From Rhodoplanes sp. Z2-YC6860 (GTDB lineage: Bacteria; Pseudomonadota; Alphaproteobacteria; Rhizobiales; Xanthobacteraceae), in NCBI RefSeq assembly GCF_001579845.1, contig NZ_CP007440.1, positions 310,001 to 374,000 of the forward strand: 64,000 nt of DNA, written 5' to 3'. The notes beneath the pieces were generated by a model that made no database searches, was not told the origin of the DNA, and was given only the letters and a program-made list of their open reading frames with translations. This document shows positions 53,445 through 57,215 of this stretch, one piece after another; the stretch's first letter is position 1, and each line of letters starts with the position of its first letter. The position numbers were made by a program, and so were the translations under genes.

Positions 53445-54986
53445 CTACGCCGCCGCGACCAGCGCGGGCTTCGCTATCTCCTGCGAGGCCTTGAATGCCG
53501 CTTCGGCGAGCTCGGTGCGGTTGCGGCCACCGTCCTTGGCGCGATAGAGCGCTTCGTCGGCCGCGGTCAGCAGCGCGGCGTGGCCCGTGCTGCGCTCGGG
53601 GATCAGGCAGGCGACGCCGATGCTGATCCTGGCGCCCTCCGCCAGGCCTTTGTCGCGGCAGACCCGGTTGAAGTGCGCGCGGATCTTGCCCGCGACCTCG
53701 GCGGCGTTCTCCAGCGACGCGCCGGGCAGCAGCACCGCGAATTCGTCGCCGCCGTAGCGCGCGCCGAGATCGGCGCCGCGCCGGACGTTGGCGAGCATCG
53801 CCTCGCCGATCACCTTCAGAAGCTCGTCGCCGGCCTGATGGCCGTGCGTGTCGTTGTAGGTCTTGAACGCGTCGGCATCGATCATCAGCAGGGCAACCGG
53901 CGTGCGGTCGCGCCGCGCACGCCGCCATTCCTTGCGGATGGTGTCGTCGAAATGCCAGCGGTTGGAGAGGCCGGTGAGGCCGTCCGTCGAAGCCAGCATC
54001 GCGAGCCGCTGCTCGGCCTCGCTGTGCCAGTTGAGCTCGCGCAACAGGAGCCAGCCCAGCGCGCCCGACATCGCAACCAGCGCGACGATCAGCATCGCGA
54101 CGGTCCAGGCATAGCTGCGCCACGGCGCATAGATCGCGCCGGTCGACTGGCCGACGCTGACGAAGATCGGCAGGTCGCTGATCTGGCTGTAGACAAACAG
54201 CCGGTGCACGCCGTCGGTGACGGCGGTGGTTTCGAAGCGGCCGCTGCGCGCGGATTTCAGCCGCTTGAATATCTCCGCATGGCCGATGTTGCGGCCGATC
54301 AGGGCTTCGTCGAACGGCCAGCGCATCAGCATGGTGCCGTCGGCGCGTCCGAGCATGATCGTGCTGTTCGGACCGAGCGACATGTCGTTGAACAGCTTCT
54401 TGAAGTGGCTGAGCTGGACCGTGCCGGCGACCACACCGGCGAACGAGCCGTCCGGATGGGTGAGCCGCTTGCTGACGCCGATGATGAAGGCGCCGGACGA
54501 TCGCGCCGCTTCGGGCTGGCCGACGCTGAGCACCGGCGCGGCCTGGTCTCTCTGGAGGCGGAAATAGTCGCGGCCGGAGAGGTCGAGCGGCCGGGGCGAA
54601 GGATTGCGCGAGTCGTAGCGCAGCCGCCCGTTCTCATCGATCACCAGGATCGCGCCGAACGAACGCGCCGCGGTGGAGTGGTCGAACAGCATGCGCTGGC
54701 GCAGCTCCGGGCTCAAGCTTGCCAGCTCCCGCTGGCCGAGACCGGCGATGACGCCCTGCAGCGACAGGTTGAGCGCCTCGACATTGCGGACAATGTCGGC
54801 CTCGATCGCCACCGCCATGTTGGCCGCGGCGTCTCCGGCGCGTTCCAGCGCCGAACGGCGCGCTTCGATCAGGACATGGCTGCACAGCGCGCAAAACGCC
54901 AAGGTCACCAGCACCACCGGTGCCAGCACCTTGAGCCGGTTCGAAGGCGCCTTCGACCGGAATCGCGCGATGTCGTGATCGGACAT
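53445..54986 (-). CDS. Membrane diguanylate cyclase with periplasmic Cache sensor
   Basis: The 513-residue protein has a membrane segment (LAPVVLVTLAFCALCSHVL, about 20-40), a periplasmic dCache-type sensor (DYFRLQRDQAAPVLSVGQP, IIGVSKRLTHPDGSFAGVV), and a second segment (WTVAMLIVALVAMSGALGWL). A GGDEF domain follows. The active site reads RYGGDEFAVLLPG, and RGAD five residues before GGDEF is an intact inhibitory I-site, so it should make c-di-GMP with product feedback. The open frame extends to 55439 but the upstream part is repeat DNA. Confidence 0.93.
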   Translation of the reverse strand: MSDHDIARFRSKAPSNRLKVLAPVVLVTLAFCALCSHVLIEARRSALERAGDAAANMAVAIEADIVRNVEALNLSLQGVIAGLGQRELASLSPELRQRMLFDHSTAARSFGAILVIDENGRLRYDSRNPSPRPLDLSGRDYFRLQRDQAAPVLSVGQPEAARSSGAFIIGVSKRLTHPDGSFAGVVAGTVQLSHFKKLFNDMSLGPNSTIMLGRADGTMLMRWPFDEALIGRNIGHAEIFKRLKSARSGRFETTAVTDGVHRLFVYSQISDLPIFVSVGQSTGAIYAPWRSYAWTVAMLIVALVAMSGALGWLLLRELNWHSEAEQRLAMLASTDGLTGLSNRWHFDDTIRKEWRRARRDRTPVALLMIDADAFKTYNDTHGHQAGDELLKVIGEAMLANVRRGADLGARYGGDEFAVLLPGASLENAAEVAGKIRAHFNRVCRDKGLAEGARISIGVACLIPERSTGHAALLTAADEALYRAKDGGRNRTELAEAAFKASQEIAKPALVAAA

Positions 54987-55210
54987 CCTGTCCAGTTCCC
55001 CCTGAAGGGGAACATGCACGGGCGGGGTATTTCGAACCTTAAAGCCGGCGGCAACCTTCGGCCGCGGTTCCGGTTTGGTATGCGCGGTGTTAATGGGCGC
55101 GCTGAGGCGGCTCGAGTTGCGTGCTTGGACTCGCGCTCCGTCAACGAAGGTGGTCGTTACCCTCGGGCATGGGCGGCACACGAGTCCACACCTCCACCAA
55201 CATAAGCGGT

Positions 55211-55324
55211 CGTCACCCCCGGGCTTGACCCGGGGGTCCATACGATGACGCAACGGCGTCGGCTCGTACGACTGCCTTCGCAGCGGCCGCTCATGGATTG
55301 CCGGGTCAAGCCCGGCAATGACAC
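55211..55324. repeat. Intergenic palindromic repeat pair
   Basis: CACCCCCGGGCTTGACCCGG near 55214 and GCCGGGTCAAGCCCGGC near 55300 flank a spacer containing CTGCCTTCGCAGCGGCCGC, the inverse of part of 40479-40605. The surrounding 54987-55210 and 55325-55470 show no gene. Confidence 0.75.
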
Positions 55325-55476
55325 CGCCGTCGGATTGGCGTCGGTGGCATCCTGATTCAATTGTCAAACAGCCCACGCTTTTGCGCGTCATCCAAACATC
55401 CATGCAGGCGTGATTCATCGGCCCCTTCAGATCAGGCACGGGGCCAGCGCCTCTATTCTTCCTGGTCCCTCACATG

Positions 55477-55796
55477 CGTGAGGGCGCGGAGCGCCGAGAC
55501 GGCGCACCTTGGGGGCACCTTTGCGAGAGGTGCCGCGGACCTTTGCGATCAGGTCCGCTCGCCTCCCGGCGCTCCACTGTGGCGATTTGTTGCGAGGCCA
55601 CCGTTCGAGATTCGATCGGACCGGCTGGGTTTTCACCCACCATGCTCCACGGGGCATTTGCGCCCGCTTTCACCGACCGCGCCCTGCCACTGAAGGCGGC
55701 CCCCTCATCGGGGACGGACGATGACCTCACACCCTGGGACGTGGTCACGAGCCACGCCTGCAGGCGCCACACCTCGCTCCGCCAAATAGACGTCCC
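55477..55796. other. Highly structured non-coding segment
   Basis: Three hairpins follow closely. CCCTCAC-ATGC-GTGAGGG lies at 55477-55494. Then come two adjoining ones with the same TTGCGA loop: GGCACCT / AGGTGCC (55514-55534) and GCGGACCT / AGGTCCGC (55535-55558). Further on GGGACGT (55736-55742) pairs with ACGTCCC (55790-55796) around the palindrome GCCTGCAGGC. Open frames across it have odd composition and no ribosome sites. It could be a structured RNA or a large dispersed repeat. Either strand is possible. Confidence 0.5.
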
Positions 55797-55931
55797 TAGT
55801 CGACGCCCTCAGTGAGCGAGGTGAGTCGCCGTCTAAGCGTGATTTGCGAACATAGCAAGAACAAAACGCCCGCGGAAAAATGCTCCGGAGGCGCGCGCCA
55901 AAGCGGGGTGGCCGCCCGGCAAATCCGTGTT

Positions 55932-56909
55932 TCAGGCGAAGCGGCCGGTCTTGAACTGTCCGGTCTTGCGGAAGCGCCAGAGGTAGGACGGCACGATGGT
56001 CGACATCGCGGTCGGCTCGATGCCGAGCCCTTCGAGCGTGCGGCCCTCGGCGATCGCCGCGGCCGATACGATGTTATCGACCTTGAGCTGCTCGACCTGG
56101 TCGGGCGTGATCAGCGGCTTGAACGGCGAAAGCTGCGCGAACATCGCTACGAATTTCGCGAGCCCGAACGGCAGCGGCACCAGGAAGCGATCCCGCTCGG
56201 CGGTGTCGAGCACGAACTGCATCAGCTCCTTGAAGGTTCTCACCTCCGGGCCGCCGGCCTCGTAGATCGTGCCCGCCTTCGCCGTGCCGTCGGCCGCGCG
56301 CGCGATGGCTTCCGCGACGTCGCCGACGAACGCCGGCTGGAATTTGGTTTCCCCGCCGCCAATGAGCGGCAGCGCCGGCAGCATCCGCGCCATGGCGCCG
56401 AACTTGTTGAAGAAGTCGTCCTCGGGACCGAACATGACCGACGGCCGCACGATCACGGCGTCCGGCTTGGCCGCCAGCACGGCCTTCTCGCCCATCGCCT
56501 TGCTGCGTGCGTAGCCCGACGGCGAATTCTCGTCGGCGCCGATCGCCGAAATCTGGATCATCCGCGCGCCGTGGGCGGAGGCCGCGAGCGCCGCCTGCTC
56601 GGCGCCGTAGCCCTGCACGGTGTCGAAGCGCTGCCGGCCGCTCTCGTGGAGGATGCCGACCAGGTTGATCACCACGTCGGCGCCGCGCACCGCCGCCTCG
56701 ACCGACTCGGCGTTGCGGATGTTGGCCTGCACGGCGTGGATCTGGCCGACCCGGCCGAGCGGCTGCAGGTGGCCGGTGAGATCGGGCCGCCGCACCGCGA
56801 TGCGCATGCGATACTGCCGCCGCGCCAGCGCCCGCACCACGTGGCGCCCGACGAAGCCCGAGCCGCCGAAGATCGTGATCAGCGTGTCGTTGTTGGCTTG
56901 GAAGTCCAT
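55932..56909 (-). CDS. Complex I NDUFA9-like SDR family protein
   Basis: The 325-residue atypical SDR has LITIFGGSGFVGRHVVRALA at the start, VINLVGILHESGRQRFD, QISAIGADENSPSGYARSKAMGE with the Tyr-x3-Lys pair, and VIVRPSVMFGPEDDFFNKFG. This is the alphaproteobacterial relative of mitochondrial NDUFA9, thought to help assemble or stabilise complex I, although it is not near nuo genes here. ATG 56909 is the clear start. Confidence 0.9.
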   Translation of the reverse strand: MDFQANNDTLITIFGGSGFVGRHVVRALARRQYRMRIAVRRPDLTGHLQPLGRVGQIHAVQANIRNAESVEAAVRGADVVINLVGILHESGRQRFDTVQGYGAEQAALAASAHGARMIQISAIGADENSPSGYARSKAMGEKAVLAAKPDAVIVRPSVMFGPEDDFFNKFGAMARMLPALPLIGGGETKFQPAFVGDVAEAIARAADGTAKAGTIYEAGGPEVRTFKELMQFVLDTAERDRFLVPLPFGLAKFVAMFAQLSPFKPLITPDQVEQLKVDNIVSAAAIAEGRTLEGLGIEPTAMSTIVPSYLWRFRKTGQFKTGRFA

Positions 56910-57130: not shown

Positions 57131-57215
57131 GCCCAGATGGCGGAATTGGTAGACGCACCAGTTTCAGGTACTGGCGCCGCGAGGCGTGGAGGTTCGAGTC
57201 CTCTTCTGGGCACCA
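57131..57215 (+). tRNA. tRNA-Leu(CAG)
   Basis: An 85-nt class II tRNA. The acceptor GCCCAGA (57131-57137) pairs with TCTGGGC (57205-57211), then A and an encoded CCA. The anticodon loop TTCAGGT between CCAGT and ACTGG gives CAG, reading CUG leucine codons. A long variable arm (GCCGCGAGGCGT region) and the T-loop GGTTCGAGTCC are present. Confidence 0.97.

Follow-up and report, generated by a model that had tools for sequence, protein, structure and literature searches.

The window analysed here is a stretch of 64,000 nucleotides from the chromosome of Rhodoplanes sp. Z2-YC6860. The locus under study is flanked by two minus-strand genes, an epimerase/NAD-binding family gene (55932-56909) and a GGDEF gene with its start near 54986, and holds one copy of a dispersed, structured RNA family that is read on the minus strand (Table 1). 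A REP-like palindromic module of the GTCATTGCCGGGCTTGACCCGGCAAT type (55186-55330) lies next to the RNA. The same association is found in 13 of 40 copies in the own genome (window copy included), and similar modules come after many copies in other genomes (hereafter foreign copies). A tRNA-Leu (cag) gene (57131-57215) is the sole tRNA found in the window.

Table 1. Positions of the RNA unit and its parts within the window, listed from the promoter-like start to the boxA-like motif
Feature	Position	Strand	Evidence or remark
Promoter-like start	55827..55866	(-)	TAGACG (-10-like) 55830-55835; TTGCTA (-35-like) 55853-55858; spacing 17 nt; sequence reading only
GTTC-N7-GTTC (SOS/LexA-type box)	55848..55862	(-)	Overlaps the promoter-like start
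Structured RNA, ~420 nt, one of at least 54 genome copies	55404..55826	(-)	BLAST, covariation, fold z -6.15
5' domain (model R1): long hairpin containing an inner one, followed by the first part of the central domain	55715..55823	(-)	R1 116.7 bits (window copy itself in the R1 training set)
3' domain (model R2): GGAGCGCC/GGCGCTCC stem enclosing the twin hairpins, plus CCCTCAC/GTGAGGG hairpin	55467..55587	(-)	R2 108.1 bits (window copy itself in the R2 training set)
Twin hairpin, second in plus-strand order	55535..55558	(-)	GCGGACCT..AGGTCCGC; helix 9 of the covariation model
Twin hairpin, first in plus-strand order	55514..55534	(-)	GGCACCT..AGGTGCC; helix 10 of the covariation model
Likely H-type pseudoknot	55420..55452	(-)	AGGCGC/GTGCCT stem; loop GGCCCC pairable with downstream GGGGCC; by eye
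boxA-like motif GGCTGTTTGACAATTGAATC	55354..55373	(-)	450 nt away from the start of the 5' domain

The preliminary description of this locus, made without database searches, reported twin adjoining hairpins with a shared loop in the segment 55477-55796. This claim held and the quoted strings were found, with ACCTTTGCGA being common to both hairpins (positions 55517 and 55539). The third perfect hairpin that was said to precede the twins is also present (CCCTCAC/GTGAGGG, 55467-55484) and begins ahead of that segment. The 7-bp long-range stem was not identified; a 10-bp helix (55770-55779 with 55814-55823) is present. Taken alone, the hairpins are a weak signal: two perfect stem-loops of ≥ 7 bp were counted versus a shuffled mean of 0.29, and this number was equalled in 75 of 2000 shuffles. 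The observation becomes strong because other copies vary in sequence yet keep the pairing. The twin-hairpin block occurs as 28 distinct strings over the 40 copies found with BLAST. In alignment A1, which comprises 42 sequences (23 own and 19 from other genomes), helices 9 and 10 are paired in 88.1% and 83.5% of the cells, respectively, and all six pairs counted show changes on both sides. As the minus strand folds better (see below), the shared loop reads UCGCAA in the RNA. The hairpins are part of a larger unit on the opposite (minus) strand.

The copies in the own genome were collected in two ways. BLAST of positions 55440-55850 returned 40 places with 78-100% identity across the 8,193,889-base chromosome. 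The core conserved among these copies extends from approximately 55404 to 55865, and in 13 of the 40 (window copy included) the similarity continues into the REP-like stretch near 55190-55330. Pairwise identity among 39 copies over 55486-55823 has a median of 0.875 (range 0.673-0.994). A search with model R1 gave 51 places at E < 1e-5 and two weak ones. The genome holds at least 54 copies in total: the 51 R1 copies, one copy (L031) of which only the 3' part remains and which was excluded from the 51 as its 5' domain is absent, and two divergent copies (L164 and L165, within 4047000-4050000 and 7123000-7126000) that were detected through their boxA together with R2 (58.2 and 30.0 bits). L164 and L165 are short and lack most of the central domain, while the promoter-like start, the 3' domain and the boxA are retained; they may represent a minimal form of the RNA. 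The strand of the 51 R1 copies is uneven: plus copies predominate at 0.8-3.3 Mb, and minus copies in the stretch that runs from 7.3 Mb across the sequence start to 0.6 Mb. This pattern looks as if the copies could be co-oriented with replication, a possibility judged by inspection only, as the origin was not located.

Covariation supports the structure. In the 59-pair core of alignment A1, 30 pairs show changes on both sides and 95.5% of the cells are paired; helix 8 of the 3' domain reaches 98.8%. The covariation score was 0.301 versus 0.180 in shuffled alignments, none of the 500 shuffles scored as high, and structures slid along the alignment scored 0.05-0.09. When structures were derived separately for own and foreign copies, 61 pairs were common to both, 28 of them with a double change. 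The criterion for a structured noncoding RNA, namely covarying helices beyond shuffled controls, is met. The strand is supported as well: the fold of 55440-55840 differs from shuffles by a z of -6.15 on the minus strand and of -1.99 on the plus strand. The folds of the two strands share 72 pairs, at which G-U pairs outnumber A-C mismatches (173 versus 71), and the minus strand is favoured in 36 of 42 sequences. Among the 19 foreign sequences, the mean z is -4.78 for the RNA strand versus -3.47 for the opposite strand, with the RNA strand lower in 15. That the opposite strand also beats the shuffles counts against the strand assignment, although any stems would be expected to give this result. 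The RNA family, its structure, its strand and its copies are well supported, whereas transcription itself is inferred, without transcript evidence.

A conserved protein-coding gene is contradicted by broken frames and non-triplet indels. Four open frames were followed across the 40 copies and are unbroken in 2, 1, 12 and 5 of them; 110 of the 120 indels among the copies are not multiples of three.

The preliminary description had further proposed selection on RNA shape, which held and is backed by covariation, and had found no match to a known RNA (tmRNA, RNase P, SRP or 6S), which held with zero Rfam families at gathering score. Both findings that it had named as refuting its view fail: compensatory changes are present among the copies, and a decayed coding sequence is contradicted as the tested frames are broken in most copies. 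It did not contain the minus strand of the RNA, its length of approximately 420-480 nt, the at least 54 dispersed copies, the promoter-like start or the frequent boxA.

At gathering thresholds, a search of the window against Rfam 15 returned only a tRNA elsewhere in the window. With the limit relaxed to E values up to 5, positions 55000-56000 gave two matches (17.1 and 14.2 bits versus thresholds of 50), and four relatives gave one (21.5 bits versus a threshold of 153). These relaxed matches are at chance level.

The region ahead of the 5' domain carries promoter-like motifs at a fixed distance. For this comparison, 61 foreign loci were used after exclusion of L073, L074, L077 and L114 as repeats; several genomes still contribute more than one locus. 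At -45 to -22 from the 5' domain, 32 of the 61 loci have TTGAC, compared with 1/60 at every one of the three control places. A TATCCCC-type second motif occurs in 19/61 loci versus 0/60 controls. Either motif is found at the fixed distance in 51 loci, neither in 10. Several TTGAC starts contain a palindrome, e.g. TTCCTATAGGAA, ahead of the -10 place. In the own genome, the starts are of the TTTGC..GCAAA type (30/51) or the GTTC-N7-GTTC type (17/51), and four have neither. GTTC-N7-GTTC is not enriched genome-wide (187 sites versus 214 in the reversed control), occurs once upstream of recA in the other orientation, and was not seen in the foreign-copy upstream regions inspected. SOS-type control of a subset of copies is possible but remains a lead only, as the genome-wide site count is no higher than in the control. 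The promoters of this one RNA contain diverse palindromes (e.g. in L013, L019, L079, L093 and L114), among them TTTGC-N6-GCAAA, GTTC-N7-GTTC, TTCCTATAGGAA and GGGGATACGAATCCCC. The family displays exchangeable promoter types ahead of one conserved RNA.

At the other end of the unit, many copies carry a boxA of the rRNA type. The rRNA leader of the own genome contains GGCTGTTTGACAGGTGAATC 220 nt ahead of the single 16S gene, and the boxA core GGCTGTTTGACA is identical in the RNA copies and in this leader. The search of the 8.19 Mb genome yielded no 16S gene besides this one (1423287-1424771). A search of the own genome for GGCTGTTTGANANNTGAATC returned 27 matches; the reversed control returned none. 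One match is the rRNA leader and the other 26 are at the ends of RNA copies (24 R1 copies, L164 and L165). In the 24 R1 copies, the match shares the strand of the R1 start and follows it by 440-482 nt. A relaxed form of boxA is present in 27 of the 51 own copies. Outside the own genome, 24 of 55 foreign loci have CTGTTTGA in the equivalent stretch; it is absent from the upstream control stretches, which a few short loci lack. In the sequences inspected from other families, no boxA was seen. The criterion of a boxA with the same sequence as the organism's rRNA boxA is met in about half of the copies, while binding of Nus factors is inferred. As boxA is absent from many copies and unseen in the inspected sequences from other families, it cannot be what the function centres on. 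The gamma-proteobacterial boxA is bound by NusB/NusE and has the consensus GYTCTTTAANA (PMC5725501). A 2017 survey of gamma-proteobacterial boxA targets left out noncoding RNAs (PMC5725501).

Between the 3' domain and boxA, the likely pseudoknot has weaker support. The arrangement recurs with other letters in approximately 21 of 58 foreign loci, which is suggestive only. The scan scored the best hit per locus, and in many loci this best hit is another helix. The mean score was 10.5 versus 7.2 (sd 5.1) in shuffles, and 8 of the 58 loci had no candidate.

To describe the distribution, models R1 (5' domain) and R2 (3' domain) were built from 31 and 30 of the 42 A1 sequences. Within the same family, 296 genomes were sampled and 162 of them (own genome included) had an R1 match, representing 32 of 47 genera. 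Among 397 genomes sampled across the order, 15 had a match, 12 of which belong to five other families; in the class sample, the own genome was the only match among 385. Twelve other genomes that were scored deeply have 4-18 copies each. In the family and order searches, at most 12 or 9 candidates were scored per genome under stricter filters, so that copy counts are minimum values and weak matches could have escaped. The two models are independent, and of the 29 loci L076-L104, 25 have R2 adjacent to R1, while a contig end truncates one further locus; among the 29, L077 is the same place as L047, which was used in both models. In other families, R2 adjoins R1 at 14 of 20 loci, including one with an E of 0.045. 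Occurrence is patchy: one genus of the same family (g40) had no R1 match in its 14 listed genomes (approximately 5.5-8.8 Mb), whereas sister genera have many. Named carriers include the MAGs Rhodopseudomonas sp. Cfx3-05 and Hyphomicrobiales bacterium ND5_Bin_55_1. Copies are often located at contig ends in G176, G591 and other drafts, and draft assemblies therefore probably undercount them. No match was found in plasmids and phages by blastn of the window copy or in viral contigs with one exact 21-base pattern; remote relatives could escape both searches.

We consider it likely that the segment is a copy of a new, large structured noncoding RNA gene on the minus strand that acts in trans and probably engages NusB-S10; transcription, Nus-factor binding and action in trans are inferred. 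In this model, the units are dispersed and each would start at its own promoter-like start. The predicted RNA starts with a hairpin domain at its 5' end, continues with a variable central part and leads into a 3' stem bearing the twin hairpins, followed by the putative pseudoknot and, in about half of the copies, by an rRNA-type boxA. It would most likely work in trans, as RNA or RNP. The boxA would load NusB-NusE (S10), and the RNA would consequently either be transcribed and folded like rRNA or compete with rRNA for these factors. As a caveat, the high copy number and patchy occurrence could also fit a selfish element.

The main rival, which we regard as unlikely, follows from this caveat. 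It holds that the unit is a mobile but non-autonomous element. Its RNA would serve a trans-supplied protein as scaffold or guide, similar to HEARO or omega RNA, and copies would thereby be spread along with the RNA unit. It is favoured by the at least 54 copies here, the 4-18 in twelve other genomes, the patchy occurrence and the copies in genome G148. Among the ten pairs formed by the five G148 copies, similarity begins at -33 to -37 in nine and the flanks differ. Similarity ends at 443-458, shortly past boxA, in five pairs, at 381-388 in the four pairs involving a boxA-less copy, and at approximately 700 in one. Against this reading, boundaries are less sharp in the other groups compared, no coding gene was seen inside any copy inspected, Rfam gave no HEARO match, and no target duplication or terminal inverted repeat was seen by eye. 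Moreover, a few loci keep the same neighbour on the same side across genomes, as old resident genes would. A common flanking protein (E<1e-15) was shared by 67 locus pairs from different genomes, many of those listed being paralogues of approximately 30% identity. Where the flanking protein has ≥ 48% identity, side and orientation are kept in L045/L062, L066/L105 and L123/L116 but not in L079/L057 and L057/L083. Copy position is only partly conserved, which hints that some copies could be old residents. A mobile, omega-style element might still have a cellular role, as the one would not exclude the other.

Two further alternatives are very unlikely. In the first, the segment is a DNA repeat of the REP/BIME/RIME kind, in which the hairpins act in DNA (e.g. 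as binding or transposition sites) without any RNA function. The repeat is indeed intergenic and is joined to another REP-like module in the 13 of 40 copies mentioned above. This reading is opposed by the multi-branched structure with long-range helices preserved via double changes, by the excess of G-U over A-C on one strand, and by promoter motifs and boxA on that same strand. In the second, the segment is a cis-acting element, i.e. a 3' end, a terminator or insulator between genes, or the leader of the next gene. With genes called by a simple script, 38 of the 40 copies are essentially intergenic, overlapping no called gene by more than approximately 60 nt. Copies lie between convergent genes (16/40), divergent genes (5/40) or one-strand neighbours (18), and one has no called downstream gene; a boxA close to the end would influence transcription beyond the RNA. 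However, the downstream gene is antiparallel to the RNA in 27 of the 39 copies that have one called, so that a leader role is not general, and a terminator would not need its own promoter-like starts. A decayed coding sequence, to which open frames of 76-113 aa at the window locus might point, is all but excluded by the covariation, the few copies with intact frames and the 110/120 non-triplet indels.

Returning to the trans-acting RNA, a bolder version of it is that boxA-tailed decoy RNAs produced genome-wide bind NusB-S10 and tune the antitermination of the single rRNA operon, with tens of differently regulated decoy copies, some under SOS-type control. We consider this version unlikely; if true, it would tie ribosome synthesis to stress. 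More than 50 genes for a large structured RNA without a match in Rfam would represent a new class of bacterial noncoding RNA, perhaps an abundant one, and the frequent rRNA-type boxA offers a directly testable link to Nus factors. What is new is the family itself and the way its units are laid out. Loosely defined, large noncoding RNAs are already known, and the function of this family is not established. In the open-licence literature searched, no paper was recognised as describing it (subscription papers were mostly outside the scope).

Of the known systems, OLE, GOLLD and ROOL resemble the present RNA in a size of several hundred nt, a complex conserved structure and a function that is poorly understood or unknown (PMC12286853). 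OLE, GOLLD and ROOL mostly occur in few copies per genome and, to our knowledge, have no boxA, whereas the RNA described here has many dispersed chromosomal copies and a boxA. Membership in these families is not met, as there is no Rfam match at gathering score. HEARO, a protein-bound RNA of 343 nt, and the omega RNA of IscB-IsrB are likewise structured RNAs of 300-400 nt (PMC12286853). Such RNAs reach high copy numbers in some genomes. The present family differs from them in that it has no Rfam match, no ORF or partner gene seen beside the copies, and a promoter-like start inside the dispersed unit. Br-REP1 and Br-REP2 of Bradyrhizobium are multicopy intergenic palindromes from related bacteria, but they are short and have a different consensus (PMC5082802). 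Br-REP2 is said to be part of a larger, unpublished element; the comparison made here concerns the short palindromes. Membership in the REP/BIME/RIME group, i.e. short or mosaic palindromes without a strand-specific RNA signal, is not met given the G-U excess and the promoter and boxA on one strand. The boxA of the RNA copies differs from the gamma-proteobacterial consensus but is the same as that of the rRNA in this genome. The structured RNA has the boxA core in common with the rRNA leader but is not itself rRNA. In rRNA units, boxA is located in the leader before the RNA, whereas here it lies behind the structured RNA, 440-482 nt downstream of its start.
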